Source: Acidimicrobiia bacterium (GTDB lineage: Bacteria > Actinomycetota > Acidimicrobiia > Acidimicrobiales > Bin134). Taken from it: a stretch of DNA of 64,000 bases. The notes under the pieces were generated by a model. That model had not been told where the DNA came from. It searched no databases and was given only the letters and a program-made list of their open reading frames with translations. Below are positions 23,982 to 32,252 of this stretch, piece by piece (within the stretch, counting starts at the first letter, position 1; every line of letters starts with the position of its first letter). The position numbers and the translations under genes are program-made. The DNA lies in contig JAJECA010000042.1 of NCBI GenBank assembly GCA_022822265.1, positions 1 through 64,000 on the forward strand. The letters are read 5' to 3'.

Positions 23982-24857
23982 CTAGATCCGGGCCTCGCGC
24001 ACATCCAGGCGCCGGAGCATCTCGTCGCCCACGAAGTTCAACGCCATCAGCGTGACGAACATCACCCCGCCGGTGATCAGGGCGATGTGGGGGGCGTCCT
24101 CCAGCCTTCCCTTGCCGGAGGACAAGATGTTGCCCCAGGTGATGCTGGGCGAGCCCACGCTCACCCCGATGAACGACAGGCTGCCCTCGGCGATGATCAC
24201 GATCCCCATGGCCAAAAAGGCGATCGAGGCCAGCGCCGGCACCACGTTGGGCATCACTTCTCGGAACAGCAGTCGGGGCCACCGGGCTCCCATCATGTCG
24301 GCCACGGTCACGAATTCCCGAGCGGCGAACCGCAGCGCCTGGGCCCGGGCAATGCGGGCGATGGCCGGGATCGTCAAGATGGTCACGGCGATGGTCACGT
24401 TGATGTAGCTCTGGCCGAGCATGGTCACGATGAACAGGGCGAACACCAGAGCGGGAAGGGCCAGCGCCACGTTGACCACGCTGCTGACACCCAGGTCGAT
24501 CCACCTGCCGAAATAGCCGGCCACCACTCCCAGCACCCCGCCCACCACGATGCCGATGCCCACCGCGGGACCGGCGATGGACAGCGACAGCCGACCGCCC
24601 CACACCGAGCGGGCGAACATGTCCCGGCCGAGCTGATCGGTGCCGAACCAGTTCGACCACGACGGGCCCTCTTCGGGCGGCCCCGACAGCGGTTTGTGGG
24701 GGTCGTCGATGAATCCCAGCCACGGGGCCAGCACGGCGCTGGCGATCACCAAAACCAGCCATCCCAACGACAGCCAGAGGGCGACATTGTGACGGCGCTG
24801 CCGAGGGGCGATTTCGGGCTGGGAACCCGTCACGGCGGTAGTGGCAACGTCGGTCAT
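23982..24857 (-). CDS. Peptide-type ABC transporter permease (DppC/OppC-like)
   Basis: 291 residues with six predicted membrane helices after a 25-residue cytoplasmic start. WFGTDQLGRDMFARSVWGGR is the hallmark of DppC/OppC permeases. The EAA loop is DMMGARWPRLLFREVMPNVV, which docks the ATPase. The start overlaps the dppB-like stop by 4 bases (ATGA). Last gene of the transport operon; no ATPase gene follows, and the next gene converges from the other strand. Confidence 0.92.
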   Translation of the reverse strand: MTDVATTAVTGSQPEIAPRQRRHNVALWLSLGWLVLVIASAVLAPWLGFIDDPHKPLSGPPEEGPSWSNWFGTDQLGRDMFARSVWGGRLSLSIAGPAVGIGIVVGGVLGVVAGYFGRWIDLGVSSVVNVALALPALVFALFIVTMLGQSYINVTIAVTILTIPAIARIARAQALRFAAREFVTVADMMGARWPRLLFREVMPNVVPALASIAFLAMGIVIIAEGSLSFIGVSVGSPSITWGNILSSGKGRLEDAPHIALITGGVMFVTLMALNFVGDEMLRRLDVREARI

Positions 24858-25798
24858 TTTCGCCGTATCCGGGGGTCGAGCACTGAGTAGAGCAGATCGA
24901 CCAACGTGGTCACGGTCACAAAGACCGCCGCGATCAGCGCCACCAGAGTCTGGACCAGCAAGAACTCCCGGGCCGCCACCCAGCTAACCAGCAGCGACCC
25001 CACCCCGTCGAGGTCGAACAAGAACTCCACCACGATGGCGCCGTTCACCGCCTGGGCCGCCTGGATGCCGAAAATGGTCAACAGCGTGAAGCTCGAGGGG
25101 CGCAGCACATGGCGGATGAGCACGTGGCGGACCGGAAGGCCCTTGGCCCGGGCGGTTCCCACGAAGTCCTCCTGCAGGGTGCCGATGACATCGGTGCGCA
25201 GCAGTCTCAGATAGACGGGCAACAACCCGGCGGCCAGCGTGATCGAGGGAAGGAACATCACCCTGAAATGGGCCCCCAACCCTTCGGATATGGGCTGGTA
25301 GCCGCTCAAGTCGAACCAGTCGAGCCTCACGGCGAACACCAAGATCAGCACCAGTCCGAGCACGAACACCGGGACAGACAACAGCGCGAACGCCCCCCCG
25401 CTGGCGATCTTGTCGATCACCGTGTTCTGCTTGTATCCGGTCCACAGGCCGAGCGGAATGGCCGCCCCCAGCGCCAGAACCTGGGAGTAGGCCAAAAGGA
25501 GCAGGGTTCGGGGCAGCGCGGTGTTGAGGGCCTCCCCGAATGACCGACCCGTCAGGTACGACTTGCCGAAGTCGCCGGTGAGCACGTCGCCGCCCCACTT
25601 GGCCCATTGCACGATGACCGGTTCGTCCAGGTTGCGATCCTGTTCGCATTCGGCGATCTGCTCTTCGGTGGCGGCCCCGCCGAACGCGGCCACGCACGGG
25701 TTGCCGGGCAGCAGGTTCAGCATCCAGTAGAACAGCAGCGTTACTGCCAGCACGACCAGGGCCAGCTGAGCCAAGCGCGTTCCGAAGAACCGGAGCAC
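24854..25798 (-). CDS. Peptide-type ABC transporter permease (DppB/OppB-like)
   Basis: 314 residues from GTG 25798 (MLRFFGTRLAQLALVVLAVT, the usual DppB beginning with a first membrane helix). The EAA loop is TARAKGLPVRHVLIRHVLRP. The periplasmic loop after helix 1 has two Cys (NPCVAAFGGAATEEQIAEC), a common variant. It pairs with the downstream DppC-like permease to form the channel for oligopeptides or similar solutes. It follows the second binding-protein gene by 52 bases. Confidence 0.92.
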   Translation of the reverse strand: MLRFFGTRLAQLALVVLAVTLLFYWMLNLLPGNPCVAAFGGAATEEQIAECEQDRNLDEPVIVQWAKWGGDVLTGDFGKSYLTGRSFGEALNTALPRTLLLLAYSQVLALGAAIPLGLWTGYKQNTVIDKIASGGAFALLSVPVFVLGLVLILVFAVRLDWFDLSGYQPISEGLGAHFRVMFLPSITLAAGLLPVYLRLLRTDVIGTLQEDFVGTARAKGLPVRHVLIRHVLRPSSFTLLTIFGIQAAQAVNGAIVVEFLFDLDGVGSLLVSWVAAREFLLVQTLVALIAAVFVTVTTLVDLLYSVLDPRIRRK

Positions 25799-25850
25799 TG
25801 GCCTATCCTGCCCCTGGCCCGTTATCGCCCTTCTACGCCGAAACCGGCTG

Positions 25851-27659
25851 CTACTGCTCGATCCAGGTCTCGCCCAAGAAGACCCTGCCGCTGAAGACCC
25901 TCTCGTGTCTCGCTCCGTCGTCGAGGGTGAGGTTGTCAACCCCGTGCACATGGTCGTGGGCGGCCAACAGCCAGTTGGAGTTGTAGAACCAGATGTAGTG
26001 GACGTTCTCGCCAAACTCGCGGTTGATGTCCTCGGCTATCTCCCTTTGCCGATCGAGGTCGTCGGTGAGCAGCGCTTCGTCGAGAGCCGCATCGATCCCC
26101 GGGTTGTTGATGCGGCCGAAGTTCAGCGCGATCCCCAGGCCGAACTTGCTGTGCCACCAAACTCGCTCGGTGGCCACGCCAAAGCCCTCGTGCTGTCGCC
26201 ACAAGAACGCGGTGAAGTTGCCGAACACCGCGTTGGTGATCAACTCGGCTTGGTCCACCTGGGTGATATTCACGTCGAGCCCGCAGTCGCCCCACATAGT
26301 GGCGATCAACTCGGTGCTGAGGAGGTTGGCCGGGTCGTTGGTGGTGCCCAATTCCACGTTGGTTATGCCCAGGCGGGCAATGGTGGCGCTACCAGCGCCG
26401 GGGTCGTAGGCCGGGAATCCGGTTTCTTCCAGATAGCCGGGGGTCCCGGGCGAGAACGGGCCGTTGTCCGGTGCCTGCCCATCCCAGCGAAGGGTGCTGT
26501 AGGTCTGTCGGTCGGTGCACTGGGCCAGCGCCTGGCGGAACTCCACGTTGTCGAACGGGGCCCGAGAGTTGTTCAGCAACAGGTAGGTGGTCTCTGCGTA
26601 CCGATCTGCCTGCCAGAAGGTCTTGAACTCCTCGTTGTAGTCGTCGACTCTGAGCCCTTCGTTCACACTGCTGGCATCGAGGTCGCCCGACCGCAGGGCG
26701 GCATACCGGGCATCGGTGTCGGGGATTGGCCGGAACTCGATGGCATCCAGATAGGGAAGCTGGCGGCCCTCTGAGTCGGTGCGCCAGTAGTTGGGGTTGC
26801 GCACCATCCGGGTCACCTCGTTGGGAATCCACTCGTCCAGCATGAACGGGCCGGTCCCAATAGGGTTGCGGGCGGCCTCCTCTTGGCCCAGGTCGTGCAT
26901 GGACGGCGCCCCGAAGTAGCCGAGATGGCTGGTCAGGAAATTGGGGAAGGTGGCATAGGGCCTGCCAAACACCATCTCTATGGACACATCGTCCACGATG
27001 TCGATGGACTGGATCTCCCAATCGGTGACAAAAATGCCGGTGAGGGTTCCCTTGGCCTGCTCCTCGAAGTGCCGCTTCAGCGCGGCTGCGTCCGCCGGCG
27101 TCCCGTCGTGGAAGAGGAGTCCTGGACGCAAGGTCAGGGTCCACTCGGTGAAGTCGTCGTTGGAGCTGAAGCTCTCCAGCAGGTTGGGGAGAATCCGGCC
27201 GTCGTCACCCTCGATGGTCAGCGTTTCATACATCGCCCGGAACAAGATGTGGCCCGACACCGCGGCCTGGGCGTTGACCGGGTTCAACCCGTTGGTGGTC
27301 TCAGCCTCCAACCCCACCACCAGAGTGCCCCCGTACTGGGGCTCCACCGCCGCCTCGGGTGCTTCGGGGGCCTCGGCTTCGGGGGCGTCCGCAGTCTCCT
27401 CGGGTGCCGCGGCGTCTTGTTCACCGTCATCGCCGGTGCTGGGCTCGGGCGCATCCTCGCCGTCTTCGCTGGGCGCCGGGGCAGCATCGCCGTCGCCTGA
27501 GGGGGCTTCGGGGGCGGCGGTTGCCTCCGCGGCCACGCCCCCGCCGTCGTCATCGTCGTCGTTCCCGCCACCGCAGGCTGATGCCACCAGGGCCAGCACA
27601 CAGAACAAAGCCAGCCAGCGCCACCGCGCCGGCTTCGAAACCCGCCAAGAAGCTGCCAT
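25851..27659 (-). CDS. ABC transporter substrate-binding lipoprotein (SBP family 5)
   Basis: 602 residues, ATG 27659 with a GGGGGG run about 8 bases upstream. Lipoprotein signal WRWLALFCVLALVASACGGG (lipid-anchored Cys). Then about 80 residues of very acidic Ala/Pro/Asp/Glu-rich linker. The mature domain is a dipeptide/oligopeptide-binding protein: QYGGTLVVGLEAETTNGLNP, LLESFSSNDDFTEWTLTLRP, NPIGTGPFMLDEW and FDNVEFRQALAQCTDRQTY are family motifs. Clearly a paralogue of the preceding gene (27722), colinear over almost the full length, so a tandem duplication. Confidence 0.93.
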   Translation of the reverse strand: MAASWRVSKPARWRWLALFCVLALVASACGGGNDDDDDGGGVAAEATAAPEAPSGDGDAAPAPSEDGEDAPEPSTGDDGEQDAAAPEETADAPEAEAPEAPEAAVEPQYGGTLVVGLEAETTNGLNPVNAQAAVSGHILFRAMYETLTIEGDDGRILPNLLESFSSNDDFTEWTLTLRPGLLFHDGTPADAAALKRHFEEQAKGTLTGIFVTDWEIQSIDIVDDVSIEMVFGRPYATFPNFLTSHLGYFGAPSMHDLGQEEAARNPIGTGPFMLDEWIPNEVTRMVRNPNYWRTDSEGRQLPYLDAIEFRPIPDTDARYAALRSGDLDASSVNEGLRVDDYNEEFKTFWQADRYAETTYLLLNNSRAPFDNVEFRQALAQCTDRQTYSTLRWDGQAPDNGPFSPGTPGYLEETGFPAYDPGAGSATIARLGITNVELGTTNDPANLLSTELIATMWGDCGLDVNITQVDQAELITNAVFGNFTAFLWRQHEGFGVATERVWWHSKFGLGIALNFGRINNPGIDAALDEALLTDDLDRQREIAEDINREFGENVHYIWFYNSNWLLAAHDHVHGVDNLTLDDGARHERVFSGRVFLGETWIEQ

Positions 27660-27721
27660 GACACGAACCCCCCATGTCACTCGTTGCCAAAACGTTAGCC
27701 CAGGAGGCGGATGCCTGCTCC

Positions 27722-29518
27722 CTACCCCTCGTCCAGCCAAGTCTCGGCCAAGAAGACCCGTCCGAGGAAGATCTTGGGGTGCGCTCCCCCTTCGGGCAGC
27801 GTGACGGTGTCGACGCCGTTCACGTGGTGGTGAGCGGCGATCAGCCACCGCGAGTGGTAGAGCCAGATGTTGTAGACACCCTCGGCAAACGCCCGGTTGA
27901 CCTCCTCGGCAAGCTCCCGCTGTCGCTCCTCGTCGTCGGTGGTGATCACTTCATCCAGCGCGGCGTCGATCCGAGGATCGGCGACGCGCCCGAAGTTGAT
28001 GGCCGGAACCGGGGGTGGCGGGCTGTAGCCGCTGTGCCACCAGAACCTCTCCATGGCCAGGCTGTACCCGCTGTGGTTGACCGCCACGAACACCGAGAAA
28101 TTCCCGAACACGGCGGTGGTCACCGCCTCGGTTTGGAGCATCTGGTTGATGCCCACGTCCAGCCCGCACTCGCCCCACATCTGGACGAGCAGTTCGGCTT
28201 GCAACAGGTCCAGCGTGGTGACGGTGGTGATGATGTCGAAGCTGGGCGCACCCAACCGCTCGAACACGGCCCGACCGGCATCAGGGTCGTAGTCGGGGAA
28301 TCCGGAGTCCTCCAGATGGCCGGGGGTGCCGGGGGAGAACGGGCCGCTGGCCGGAGGCTGCCCGTCCCACAAAACGGTGTTGAGAGTCTGCCGGTCGGTG
28401 CACTGGGCCAGCGCCCGGCGCATCTCCAGGTTGTCAAACGGCGGTCTCGAGGTGTTCATCAACACCGAGGTGGTGGCCGAGTACTGCCCACCCTGCCAGT
28501 AGGTTTTGAACCCCTCGTTGTACTCGTCGACGCGCCTTCCCCCGTTGTCGACGCTGGCATCCACGTCGCCAGCCCGAAGGGTGTTATACCGGCCCTCATC
28601 GTCTTCTATGGGGCGGAACTCGATGGCGTCGAGGTAGGGAAGCTGTCGTCCCTCGGCGTCGGTGCGCCAGTAGTTCGGATTGCGCACCAGGCGGGTCACC
28701 TCATGCTCAACCCACTCCTCCAGCATGAACGGACCCGTGCCGATCGGATTGCGGGCGCTGTCGGTGCCGAGGTCGTGCATGCCTGGCGACGCCAAAAAGC
28801 CGCCTGCGCTGGTGAAGCCGAGGGGGAAATCGACGAACGTCTTCCCCAGGTTTACCTTCACGGTCAAGTCATCGATGGCCTCGAAGCTCTGTATCTCGGC
28901 TTCTTCGATGGCCAGCCGCGACAGGGTGGCATTCCCCAACTCCTCCAAGTGGCGAACGAGGGCGGCCGAGTTCACCGGCAGGCCATCGTGGAACGTGATG
29001 CCCGGGCGCAGCGTGAACGTCCACTCGGTGTAGTCGTCGTTGGGGCTGAAGCTCTCCAACAGGAAGGGAATGGCCTCGCCATCAGCGCCTTCGATGACCA
29101 GGGGATCGTAGAGCTGCCGCAGCACGATGTGCCCCGACGTCGCCGCCGACGTGGTGATCGGGTTCCATCCCCCGGTGGTCTCTGACTCCAGGGCGAAAAC
29201 CAGTGTGCCGCCGTAGATCTCGTCGGGCTCTGATGGGGGCGGCTCTTCGTCCGGCAGCGTCGGGGCTGCGGAGGGCTCGGAGGGCTCCTCGTCGGCGTCG
29301 CGGCTCTCCTGATCGCCGGGTTGGTCGTCTTGGCTGTCGCTTGGCGGCGTGTCTGGGGCGTCTTCTGAGTCTTGGGACGGCGCCGACGCTGCGGGGGGCG
29401 ACGAGCCGTCGCCGGTGTCGTCATCACCGCCACAGGCCGACGCCAACAGTGCGAGCATGCAGATAGCGGCGAGCCACCGCCAACCCGCGCCCGTCATGCC
29501 CCGAGAACTTGCAGCCAC
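27722..29518 (-). CDS. ABC transporter substrate-binding lipoprotein (SBP family 5), tandem paralogue
   Basis: 598 residues. GTG 29518 was chosen because GGAGG sits 7 bases upstream and the resulting start (MAASSRGMTG) aligns with its paralogue's MAASWRV; an ATG six codons on is possible. Lipobox LALLASACGG, then an acidic Asp/Glu/Pro/Ser linker of about 80 residues, then the SBP_bac_5 domain (IYGGTLVFALESETTGGWNP, NPIGTGPFMLEEW, RNPNYWRTDAEGRQLPYLDA shared with the paralogue). First gene of the importer operon. Two binding proteins for one permease pair would widen the substrate range. Confidence 0.93.
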   Translation of the reverse strand: MAASSRGMTGAGWRWLAAICMLALLASACGGDDDTGDGSSPPAASAPSQDSEDAPDTPPSDSQDDQPGDQESRDADEEPSEPSAAPTLPDEEPPPSEPDEIYGGTLVFALESETTGGWNPITTSAATSGHIVLRQLYDPLVIEGADGEAIPFLLESFSPNDDYTEWTFTLRPGITFHDGLPVNSAALVRHLEELGNATLSRLAIEEAEIQSFEAIDDLTVKVNLGKTFVDFPLGFTSAGGFLASPGMHDLGTDSARNPIGTGPFMLEEWVEHEVTRLVRNPNYWRTDAEGRQLPYLDAIEFRPIEDDEGRYNTLRAGDVDASVDNGGRRVDEYNEGFKTYWQGGQYSATTSVLMNTSRPPFDNLEMRRALAQCTDRQTLNTVLWDGQPPASGPFSPGTPGHLEDSGFPDYDPDAGRAVFERLGAPSFDIITTVTTLDLLQAELLVQMWGECGLDVGINQMLQTEAVTTAVFGNFSVFVAVNHSGYSLAMERFWWHSGYSPPPPVPAINFGRVADPRIDAALDEVITTDDEERQRELAEEVNRAFAEGVYNIWLYHSRWLIAAHHHVNGVDTVTLPEGGAHPKIFLGRVFLAETWLDEG

Positions 29519-29542
29519 CAAGGAACCTCCCGTCACAAACGG

Positions 29543-30535
29543 TTAGAAGCGTAGTTCAGGCGAGAGGTAGGTGTTTCTTATCCGCTCTCCGAATTCAGGC
29601 CGATACAGTGCGCCAGGCCCGTCGGGCACTGCTACGCCCCTCCGGGCGCAGTCCTCAGTCATCGTCGCGATAAGAGTTGGCTCGTCGAGGTCGTCCAGGT
29701 GCTTGTCGTACACCTCGGCCTCTTGGGCGTCGTCGAACACAAAGGCCTTCCAAGACAGCGACACCCGCACTTCGTTGAAGTCACGGTGCACGGGCTCGTG
29801 GCCGGGCTCTTCGATGATCCACTGGCGATCGGGGGTGAGCGTGATGGTGGCGTCGAATCCGTACTTGACGTAGTCGGCTTCGGCGCCGATCGACTCCACC
29901 CGATGGGGCATGTAGTCGTTGTCGCCCATCACCCCGTAGTTGTAGGGCGGTTTCACGGTCACCATGTCGCCGTCCCATCCTTCGGGCCAGTAGGTGAACT
30001 CCCCGCCGACGCCCTCGTAGTACCAGCACACCGCGGTGGCGATCTGCACCCGCCAGCGGTCGAAGCACCCCGAGTGCATCATGCAATTGAGCAGCCAGGT
30101 GGGGTAGTCGTCTCGGCTCACCCCCCGAAAGGCGGGAATGTCGGTGTGGCGGGCGTACTGGCCGCTTGGGGCGTTGATATTCACATAGGTGAAATAGGGC
30201 CTCACCACCTCGGCGCCGTAGAGCTCTTGGGCGGCTTCGATGAACCGGGGGTTGTTGACGATGGTGTCGGCACCCTCCACGGCCTGGTGTTCGGCGCCCC
30301 AAGTGGTGCGGAACACCGGCGGCACCCGGGGCTCGCCGTCAACCACATCGACGAACGGGGGTACGTCGCCGGTGCGGGCTCCGGCCCGCAGCGCAGCCCG
30401 GCTCTCGACGAATTCCGCGCCGGCCAGCGTCAGCGGGTGGGGCGACTGCCGCTGCAAGATTCCCAGCAGCACATCGGGGTCTTCCAGGGACTGTTCCATG
30501 ATGACCGGCGGCCGGGGCAGCGTCGTCGTGCGCAT
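29543..30535 (-). CDS. Putative 2-oxoglutarate/Fe(II) oxygenase-like protein
   Basis: 330 residues from ATG 30535. I do not know the exact family. The central part reads like a double-stranded beta-helix oxygenase: a YVNINAPSGQYARHTDIPAF segment with an HxD metal-binding pair (about residues 135-137), a possible distal His in YMPHRVESIG, and an Arg/Ser pair in NEVRVSLSWKAF that could bind 2-oxoglutarate. Its spacing supports but does not prove the fold. Soluble, no signal. It is divergent from the UGSC selenoprotein gene with 90 bases between the starts, so a shared regulatory region and related role are possible. Confidence 0.55.
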   Translation of the reverse strand: MRTTTLPRPPVIMEQSLEDPDVLLGILQRQSPHPLTLAGAEFVESRAALRAGARTGDVPPFVDVVDGEPRVPPVFRTTWGAEHQAVEGADTIVNNPRFIEAAQELYGAEVVRPYFTYVNINAPSGQYARHTDIPAFRGVSRDDYPTWLLNCMMHSGCFDRWRVQIATAVCWYYEGVGGEFTYWPEGWDGDMVTVKPPYNYGVMGDNDYMPHRVESIGAEADYVKYGFDATITLTPDRQWIIEEPGHEPVHRDFNEVRVSLSWKAFVFDDAQEAEVYDKHLDDLDEPTLIATMTEDCARRGVAVPDGPGALYRPEFGERIRNTYLSPELRF

Positions 30536-30625
30536 CGCGACACAATACGGCACGGGGTAGGGTGGACCGGAAGGTCTCGCTCGGGTTGCCCGGCGAGTCG
30601 ACCGGTGGATCACCGGGAGGAACTC

Positions 30626-31165
30626 ATGGAAACCACCACCATCTTGTTGCCCACCGGCGAGGTGAACGAGCCCGCCCAGCCGCTGGCCATACGCAAAGAC
30701 TCGCTGGCCGGCGCGACGGTGGGCATCATCGACAACGACATGTGGCGGTCTATGGCCATCATGGCCGACGAGCTGTCCCGCCAGTTGGTGGACAAGGCCG
30801 GGGCGGCCGGGGTGGTGGTTCGGGCCAGCGGCCCCATGCACGGCGCCGACCCCGAGCAGTATCGACTGGAGATGGAGGCCTTCCACAAAGAGGTCGACGC
30901 GGTGATCAGCGGCTTGGGCAATTGAGGCTCGTGTACGGCGTGGTGTATCCACGCCAGCAGCACGCTGGAAGCCATGGGGACTCCTGCGGTGGGCCTGGTG
31001 ACCGAGCAGTTCCGGGGCCTGGCCGAGGCCACCGCCCGGGGCCTGCGGGTGGACAACCAGCCGCTGATCGTGTTGCCGTCGGGCTACGACGAATGGGCGG
31101 AGGACGACATCAGGGCCGACATCGCATCCCGTCTCGACGACATCGTGGACGCGCTAGTGGCATGA
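30626..31165 (+). CDS. UGSC-family selenoprotein (in-frame TGA read as selenocysteine)
   Basis: 179 residues if TGA at 30923-30925 (codon 100) is read as Sec; GGGAGG lies 5-6 bases before ATG 30626. Upstream and downstream parts are in one frame with no other stop: ...VDAVISGLGN-U-GSCTAWCIHASSTLEA followed by MGTPAVGLVTEQFRGLAEAT. The U-G-S-C motif, the invariant context GTPAVGLVTEQF and a C-terminal helix match the UGSC family, which resembles the Sec region of glycine-reductase component GrdB (UGTCTRCG-like). A SECIS-type hairpin follows the TGA at once. Without Sec the gene would yield a 99-residue fragment lacking the motif. Function unknown; redox or reductive cleavage chemistry is suspected. 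A conserved partner gene follows after 40 bases. Confidence 0.9.
30926..30964 (+). promoter_or_regulatory. Bacterial SECIS-like hairpin of the UGSC gene
   Basis: Just after the TGA, GGCGTGG (30937-30943) and CCACGCC (30949-30955) form a perfect 7-bp stem with 5-base loop TGTAT; CGTG (30930-30933) can pair with CACG (30961-30964) below an internal loop. There are 18 bases between the UGA and the apical loop, and the loop has a G at its second position; both agree with the published bacterial SECIS consensus as I know it. SelB would bind here. Confidence 0.75.
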
Positions 31166-31205: not shown

Positions 31206-32252
31206 ATGACCCAGCAGGTTGACGTCGACGGCGGAGTCGACGAGGTAGAGGCCTACTTGCGAGAACGGGGCATGACCGACGGGCTGCCGGTTGTTCCCCC
31301 CACCCCCGAGCGGGTGGACGCCGCGGTGGCCGCCTCCGGGCTGCCGGCCGACCATGTGGTGAGCGACGTGCCCCCGCTGAACGCGCCGGCCACGGTGGAG
31401 AAGATCGCGGTCAACGCGGTGATGGCCGGCTGCTCGCCTGAGGCGATGCCGGTGCTGATCGCCGCCATCGACGCCTTCTGCGACCCGCAGATGAACGCCC
31501 ACGGGGTGCAGACCACCACCAACCCGGTGGGCCCGATGCTGGTGGTGAACGGCCCGATCCGGCATCGGTTGAGCTTCAACTTCGGTGCGGGTTGCTTCGG
31601 GCCGGGGGCTCACACCAACGCCACCGTGGGTCGGGCGCTGCGGCTGGCCTTGGTGAACATCGGCGGGGCCATCCCCGGCGAGGTGGACAAGGCCCCGCTG
31701 GGATGGCCCGGCAAGGCCACCTCGCTGTGCGTGGCCGAGAACGAAGAGGCTTCTCCGTGGCCGCCCTACCACGTGGACATGGGGTTCGACGCCGACGACG
31801 ATGTGGTGACAGTGCTGGCGGTGAACGGGATGTGGCCCATCACCGACATGCACCACGAGCCCGACCAGGTGCTGCACCACGTGACCAACGGCCTGGCCAT
31901 CAGCGGTCCGTGCGGGGGCCATGACGCCCCCAACCCGTTCCCGACCGTGCTGGTGATGAGCCCGGTCATCGCCGAGATGGTGGCCAGCCTTCTGCCCACC
32001 AAACAGGAATTGCGGGAGCATCTATTTGCCGAGGCCCGCGTACCGCTGGACTTCTACCCTCCCTATCGGCGCCAGCCCACCAGAGACGTGCTGGAGAATC
32101 TCGGCGTTGCCATTGAGAACGACCGGGTGCCGATCGTGCCCTCCCCCGACTACTTCGTGATCCTGGTGGCCGGCGGTGCGGGCGGGCTCCAGTCGGCAGG
32201 GCTGTCGTGCATGCTGGGCATGCCCACGAGTCGGCTGATCGCCGCTGGTTGA
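31206..32252 (+). CDS. Conserved protein of unknown function, partner of the UGSC selenoprotein
   Basis: 348 residues, ATG 31206. The N-terminus (VEAYLRERGMTDGLPVVPPT, then PERVDAAVAASG) and LNAPATVEKIAVNAVMAGCS are features I associate with proteins commonly encoded beside UGSC genes, but no function is known to me. Conserved Cys residues occur in MAGCSPE, AFCDPQMNAHGVQT and FGAGCFGPGAHTNAT, plus GPCGGHDAPNPFP. These with His could bind metal or take part in redox chemistry with the selenoprotein. Same strand, 40 bases after the selenoprotein stop, so an operon. No membrane segment. Confidence 0.7.
   Translation: MTQQVDVDGGVDEVEAYLRERGMTDGLPVVPPTPERVDAAVAASGLPADHVVSDVPPLNAPATVEKIAVNAVMAGCSPEAMPVLIAAIDAFCDPQMNAHGVQTTTNPVGPMLVVNGPIRHRLSFNFGAGCFGPGAHTNATVGRALRLALVNIGGAIPGEVDKAPLGWPGKATSLCVAENEEASPWPPYHVDMGFDADDDVVTVLAVNGMWPITDMHHEPDQVLHHVTNGLAISGPCGGHDAPNPFPTVLVMSPVIAEMVASLLPTKQELREHLFAEARVPLDFYPPYRRQPTRDVLENLGVAIENDRVPIVPSPDYFVILVAGGAGGLQSAGLSCMLGMPTSRLIAAG

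Follow-up and report, generated by a model that had tools for sequence, protein, structure and literature searches.

The window, a stretch of 64,000 nucleotides from an Acidimicrobiia bacterium (contig JAJECA010000042.1), very probably carries a selenoprotein gene of the UGSC family, a reading to which we assign a probability of about 0.97 on the strength of the sequence. The gene lies at 30626..31165 on the plus strand and encodes 179 amino acids followed by a TGA stop codon, with a further in-frame TGA at 30923..30925 that would be read as selenocysteine 100. The UGSC family itself has been known since 2008, when, in the Global Ocean Sampling study, a 'UGSC-containing' family with 255 Sec sequences and a likely thioredoxin-like fold was described (PMC2398784). 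These proteins were among the commonest selenoproteins of ocean metagenomes at that time, and a function is still lacking in a review from 2026, which lists UGSC without a function among the selenoproteins with a thioredoxin-like fold (PMC13188914).

The UGSC gene and its selenocysteine codon

The TGA at 30923..30925 is the sole interruption of the frame from 30626 to 31165, with colinear reading on either side of it. The first-pass annotation had joined both parts into one gene, and this join, together with its coordinates, is borne out by the Pfam model PF24696 (UGSC), which spans the TGA and matches residues 6-178 of the joined protein with 114.8 bits (gathering cut-off of 25 bits) and an E-value of 5.9e-33. 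The ATG is preceded by a Shine-Dalgarno-like GGGAGGAA at 30615..30622 on the same strand, and the genuine stop is a second TGA (31163..31165, plus strand), in keeping with the end of the Pfam match at residue 178. The joined product starts as METTTILLPTGEV...DAVISGLGN-U-GSCTAWCIHASSTLEAMGTPAVGLVTEQF... and ends as ...DALVA before the stop, and around the selenocysteine it reads ...VDAVISGLGN-U-GSCTAWCIHAS...GTPAVGLVTEQF....

The likeness to the known family comprises the full-length profile match, the interchange of Sec and Cys, and the naming motif, U/C-G-S-C with Sec or Cys in first place, which is found here as NUGSCTAWC. The third cysteine lies at +7, where the motif continues with TAWC, whereas it lies at +6 in UGSCTSC members. 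Among NCBIfam models, NF041046 alone was listed as matching the protein at E-values up to 1; it gives 81.8 bits, under its equivalog cut-off of 125, and the protein is therefore regarded as a divergent UGSC member, which by its sequence belongs to the broader Pfam family and is not filed as an NF041046 equivalog. Among 16 orthologues, the frame is intact and the TGA invariant, with a pN/pS of 0.132 before the TGA and 0.096 after it, values indicative of purifying selection on both sides. It had also been anticipated that a standard gene caller would split this gene after 99 residues. The TGA is indeed preceded by 99 codons, and a relative with TGA at the same site, found 4.4 kb from selB on plasmid pFER4 of Paracoccus ferrooxidans (locus L138, 6372-6941), has been annotated in two pieces, as the hypothetical proteins E3U26_23345 and E3U26_23350.

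With regard to the decoding machinery, the genome (3.48 Mb in 64 contigs, 94.7% complete) contains SelA (1.1e-97), directly followed by an ORF that appears to encode SelB, and SelD (1.6e-106), which has an in-frame TGA of its own within GAGUAGKLG. A tRNA-Sec with the anticodon TCA is located on the SelA/SelB contig. The first-pass annotation had named the sel genes as a check on its reading, and an absence of Sec machinery or a conserved tryptophan or stop use of UGA in relatives as what would refute it. The machinery proved to be complete, and the natural replacements at the TGA column are cysteines, with no tryptophan among the relatives read. In the phylum sample, Cys occupies the site in L082, L098, L101 and L102, the last three of which form a clade nested among Sec forms in the tree. 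The plasmid-borne relatives of Variovorax, Natrinema, Arthrobacter, Embleya and Halorientalis have Cys there as well. Furthermore, the genetic code is unaltered, since TGA terminates 51 of the 110 long ORFs in the pieces of the genome that were read.

A putative SECIS hairpin is located at 30937..30955 (plus strand), starting 11 nt past the TGA codon, with a 7-bp stem (30937-30943/30949-30955) and the loop UGUAU; the region 30923-30975 folds with -23.7 kcal/mol (z of -2.66). The arrangement is that of a bacterial SECIS element, a hairpin soon after the UGA with a G in the apical loop. When the pairing positions were held fixed, 38 distinct Sec genes paired at 6.7 of 8 positions, where synonymous codon choice would give 4.9. 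For four Cys genes the value was 3.0, with 3.1 expected, and the SECIS hairpin is thus absent from the Cys homologues. In 14 genes, hand-chosen as representatives and leaving out a non-fitting paralogue on contig C29, 91.1% of the cells were paired and four pairs had changed on both sides, with a covariation score of 0.315; shuffled versions gave 0.092 (0/500), and slid versions did not exceed 0.081. Minimum free energy, compared with synonymous shuffles, did not separate the Sec from the Cys genes (mean z of -0.63 and -0.85, respectively), unlike the comparison at fixed pairing positions. The C29 paralogue (locus L012, contig C29 62699-63139) has kept its TGA and, like all of its orthologues read, is devoid of the standard hairpin, with 3 of 8 pairs; it may have another, unusual SECIS form.

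It seems highly improbable that the TGA is a genuine stop, leaving a 99-aa truncated protein or a pseudogene, or that it is read as tryptophan. Standard gene callers terminate at this codon and TGA is a common stop in the genome, but the purifying selection that continues past it, the covarying SECIS element, the cysteines that take its place in relatives, with no tryptophan in those read, the complete Sec machinery and the presence of a TGA in all six paralogues argue otherwise. Both readings, as a stop or as tryptophan, were rejected on the grounds of these cysteines, the selection, the covariation and the use of TGA elsewhere in the genome.

UGSC paralogues and their partner protein

Six UGSC genes are present in the genome, every one with a single internal TGA. 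They appear as separate deep clades in the tree; their placements are unsure because several of the branches are long. The other five paralogues score between 68.9 and 124.8 bits with NF041046. This six-fold expansion, with a TGA in every copy and spread over six deep clades, is new here. UGSC genes occur in 19 of the 22 genomes of the genus, mostly in 5-6 copies and with a TGA in nearly all of them, and one congeneric match without TGA (L070) reflects an assembly gap, with N at the motif. SelA is found in 21 of these 22 genomes, and its absence from G003, which has UGSC, is probably an assembly gap. Three congeneric genomes (G002, G006 and G016), smaller at 1.8-2.2 Mb, contain SelA and gave no UGSC match. 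Among the 396 genomes sampled across the phylum, UGSC scores above the cut-off in 27, in most cases with a single TGA. The nearest named genomes that carry the window gene are metagenome assemblies of Acidimicrobiia, one of them Candidatus Poriferisocius aerobius, and this name, together with the oxygen-dependent enzymes around the pairs, suggests that the host would be sponge-associated and aerobic.

A second gene, for an orphan family protein of 348 amino acids, lies 40 nt downstream of the UGSC gene on the same strand (31206..32252, plus strand). It has no match in Pfam, even at an E-value of 10, nor in NCBIfam or among PDB sequences. The genome contains exactly six paralogues of it, one beside each of its UGSC genes, and such a dedicated partner is another new observation. 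Over 82 UGSC loci, the partner adjoins on the same strand in 81, upstream in 44 and downstream in 37, and the independent cases are fewer than 81 because many of the loci are close orthologues. The sole exception among the 82 is a close relative in Chloroflexota (L047), which lacks an adjacent partner. The tandem spans Actinomycetota, Proteobacteria and haloarchaea, including plasmid loci. Conserved in the partner are Asp25-Gly-Leu-Pro, Cys76 (97%), Arg143 (100%), Asp161 (97%), Lys170 (93%) and Glu178 (99%). In the 2008 paper, UGSC was found once fused to a domain called 'Unknown_1' (PMC2398784), which is likewise a conserved uncharacterised companion of UGSC.

With regard to its ancestry, the partner was compared with GrdE, GrdC, UGSC and GrdB, and a relation to any of them was rejected for lack of similarity (HHalign E-values of 0.1-0.62). 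Its predicted structure has no trustworthy match to a known fold (best Foldseek value of 0.036, best Z of 4.4), and the best Foldseek similarity, that of 0.036 to cyclic amide hydrolases, is non-significant. In the loci L048-L052, two partner copies lie behind UGSC; in L048 (6464-8530), L050, L051 and L052 these are diverged tandem copies, the second of them without the conserved Cys of GAGCFGPG, which suggests a heterodimer.

Relation of the Sec domain to GrdB and PrdB

The first-pass annotation had likened UGSC to GrdB in its Sec region, and this likeness holds in a profile comparison. Aligned by HHalign with a profile of GrdB and PrdB-like sequences drawn from the same phylum, the UGSC profile matches over 93 columns with a probability of 94.7 and a single-pair E-value of 5.8e-8, Sec being placed on Sec. 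Masking the Sec column in both profiles still gives 1.2e-7, whereas the controls fail, with 0.02 for a reversed UGSC profile and 0.26 or worse for twelve column shuffles. Separately, the paralogue C5 matches the curated GrdB model TIGR01917 around the Sec with an E-value of 0.004; the best paralogue reaches 16.1 bits, far from the equivalog cut-off of 602.2 bits and from a full-length match. The profile comparison thus shows the Sec domain of UGSC to be homologous to that of GrdB/PrdB (PF07355, TIGR01917), in which the Sec has the same place, with a Cys, a helix and E..GIPTV behind it. No relation between UGSC and GrdB has been proposed in the portions of the literature covered by our search, outside of which lie most subscription journals, and we regard the alignment as new. 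One of the comparison sequences is a PrdB-like selenoprotein gene (L111 1393-2628, contig C27 at about 19.5-20.8 kb) with an in-frame TGA in TPV-U-PLCTRTVC.

An AlphaFold model of the window protein, built from 10 sequences with Cys in place of Sec (pLDDT of 88.6), predicts a five-stranded doubly wound Rossmann-like domain in which residue 100 opens the helix that comes after strand three. This model, also new, differs from the thioredoxin fold suggested in print, which it does not support. Among solved structures, it comes closest to flavodoxin-like, TIR and receiver domains (Z up to 10), matches that reflect a common fold and say nothing of function. A search of PDB sequences with UGSC gave only weak FtsZ matches (0.058), which are taken to reflect the shared Rossmann-like fold, and a GrdB sequence had no match among solved structures.

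GrdB and PrdB need a pyruvoyl partner, GrdE or PrdA. UGSC, unlike GrdB, is devoid of the large N-terminal part, and it further differs from both in its aerobic-type catabolic surroundings, in a partner unrelated to GrdE or GrdC and in the lack of a detected GrdE/PrdA: the PF09338 model found none in this genome and 21 relatives. The control genomes were also without this family, and the model does match an ORF in the GrdE position in L117.

Neighbouring genes and a proposed mechanism

The six pairs of this genome are surrounded by luciferase-like monooxygenases, CoA transferase III, P450, hydantoinase, amidohydrolases, SDRs and enoyl-CoA hydratase, and over 54 loci the commonest neighbours are SDR (10) and CoA transferase III (8). 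In Variovorax and Roseovarius, the pair has a thioredoxin reductase gene (trxB) beside it, and the gene order in Arthrobacter is trxB-trxA-partner-UGSC. Additionally, TrxR-like FAD proteins with a CxxC lie behind the pair in an Acidimicrobiia clade (L048/L050/L052) and in L166. TrxR-type genes number only 1-3 per genome, so that chance would rarely place them beside 5 of about 52 loci (about 6e-5, a rough value; the plasmid loci had been read before the count was planned). No trxA or trxB was found near the window pair or the other five pairs of this genome. The presence of trxB or a TrxR-like gene beside the pair in five lineages, once with trxA, is new and is shared with grd operons, where trxA2-trxB3 have been reported (PMC3510511); betaine reductase receives its electrons from TrxA/TrxB (PMC8547467).

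The mechanism that we favour, at little better than even odds, is that of a thioredoxin-dependent GrdB-like (seleno)reductase in which the partner supplies the substrate site and which serves aerobic CoA-linked catabolism. At the UGA at 30923, the hairpin 11 nt behind it would let SelB and tRNA-Sec insert selenocysteine into a predicted single Rossmann-like domain, where it would head the helix that follows strand three at its N-terminal end. UGSC and the 348-aa partner would form a two-subunit enzyme, as their near-invariant adjacency suggests, with the substrate held by Arg143, Cys76, Asp161, Lys170 and Glu178 of the partner. The Sec would then attack the bound substrate or take over a group from it, as proposed for GrdB, after which Cys103 would resolve the selenosulfide and thioredoxin and thioredoxin reductase would re-reduce the enzyme, a step suggested by the trxB/trxA genes that other lineages have beside the pair. 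Within aerobic CoA-linked catabolism, the enzyme may reduce a small organic acid or an amine, and the six paralogous pairs could serve six substrates. Since GrdE/PrdA was not found in this genome or 21 relatives and the partner is unrelated to GrdE and GrdC, one cannot simply assume the C-N cleavage known from glycine reductase. Against this mechanism stand the lack of trxA/trxB near the pairs of this genome, the absence of a detected GrdE/PrdA, the unrecognised fold of the partner and the Chloroflexota locus without an adjacent partner.

The same thioredoxin genes would also suit a thiol peroxidase, and UGSC might be a thiol oxidoreductase of thioredoxin type, be it a disulfide reductase, a peroxidase or a repair enzyme, whose targets would be proteins or peroxides and for which the partner would be a substrate or client. 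We consider this unlikely: the UxxC motif and the thioredoxin-like fold given in both publications (PMC2398784, PMC13188914) fit it, but the predicted fold is doubly wound and Rossmann-like, the profile relation is to GrdB/PrdB, the conserved residues of the partner form an enzyme-like set and the neighbours are catabolic. These neighbours, notably the hydantoinase, amidohydrolase and CoA transferase genes, are in turn compatible with a non-redox pair, for instance a lyase or isomerase that uses Sec solely as a nucleophile, as is the weak, non-significant Foldseek similarity (0.036) between the partner model and cyclic amide hydrolases. Such an enzyme seems just as doubtful, given that the resolving Cys three residues past the Sec is retained throughout and that trxA/trxB adjoin the pair in several lineages.

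Returning to the thioredoxin-dependent reductase, a broader and more tentative proposal, held at somewhat less than even odds, is that UGSC and its partner represent a new, widespread class of two-subunit thioredoxin-dependent (seleno)reductases, a simplified glycine-reductase-like system without the pyruvoyl subunit, which would attack organic substrates in aerobic bacteria and archaea and exist in six substrate-specific versions in sponge-associated Acidimicrobiia. The near-obligate partner, the homology to GrdB/PrdB and the adjacent thioredoxin genes turn UGSC into a concrete, testable enzyme, and the plasmid-borne Cys forms of culturable Arthrobacter, Roseovarius, Variovorax and Natrinema allow it to be studied without selenium chemistry.

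Further genes were observed near the pairs. An ORF of 328 amino acids (29543-30529, minus strand) is divergent from the window UGSC gene; it has no Pfam match at an E-value of 1 and by eye resembles an iron/2-oxoglutarate oxygenase. In L139 and L141, from a haloarchaeon and Arthrobacter, an annotated phosphosulfolactate synthase is found near the UGSC pair. Beside the window pair, the minus strand (23982-29536) encodes an ABC transporter of the oligopeptide type, which includes two binding proteins of the SBP_bac_5 family. A binding protein of this family also occurs near the Chloroflexota relative L047, and these neighbours may point to the substrate of this UGSC subfamily.
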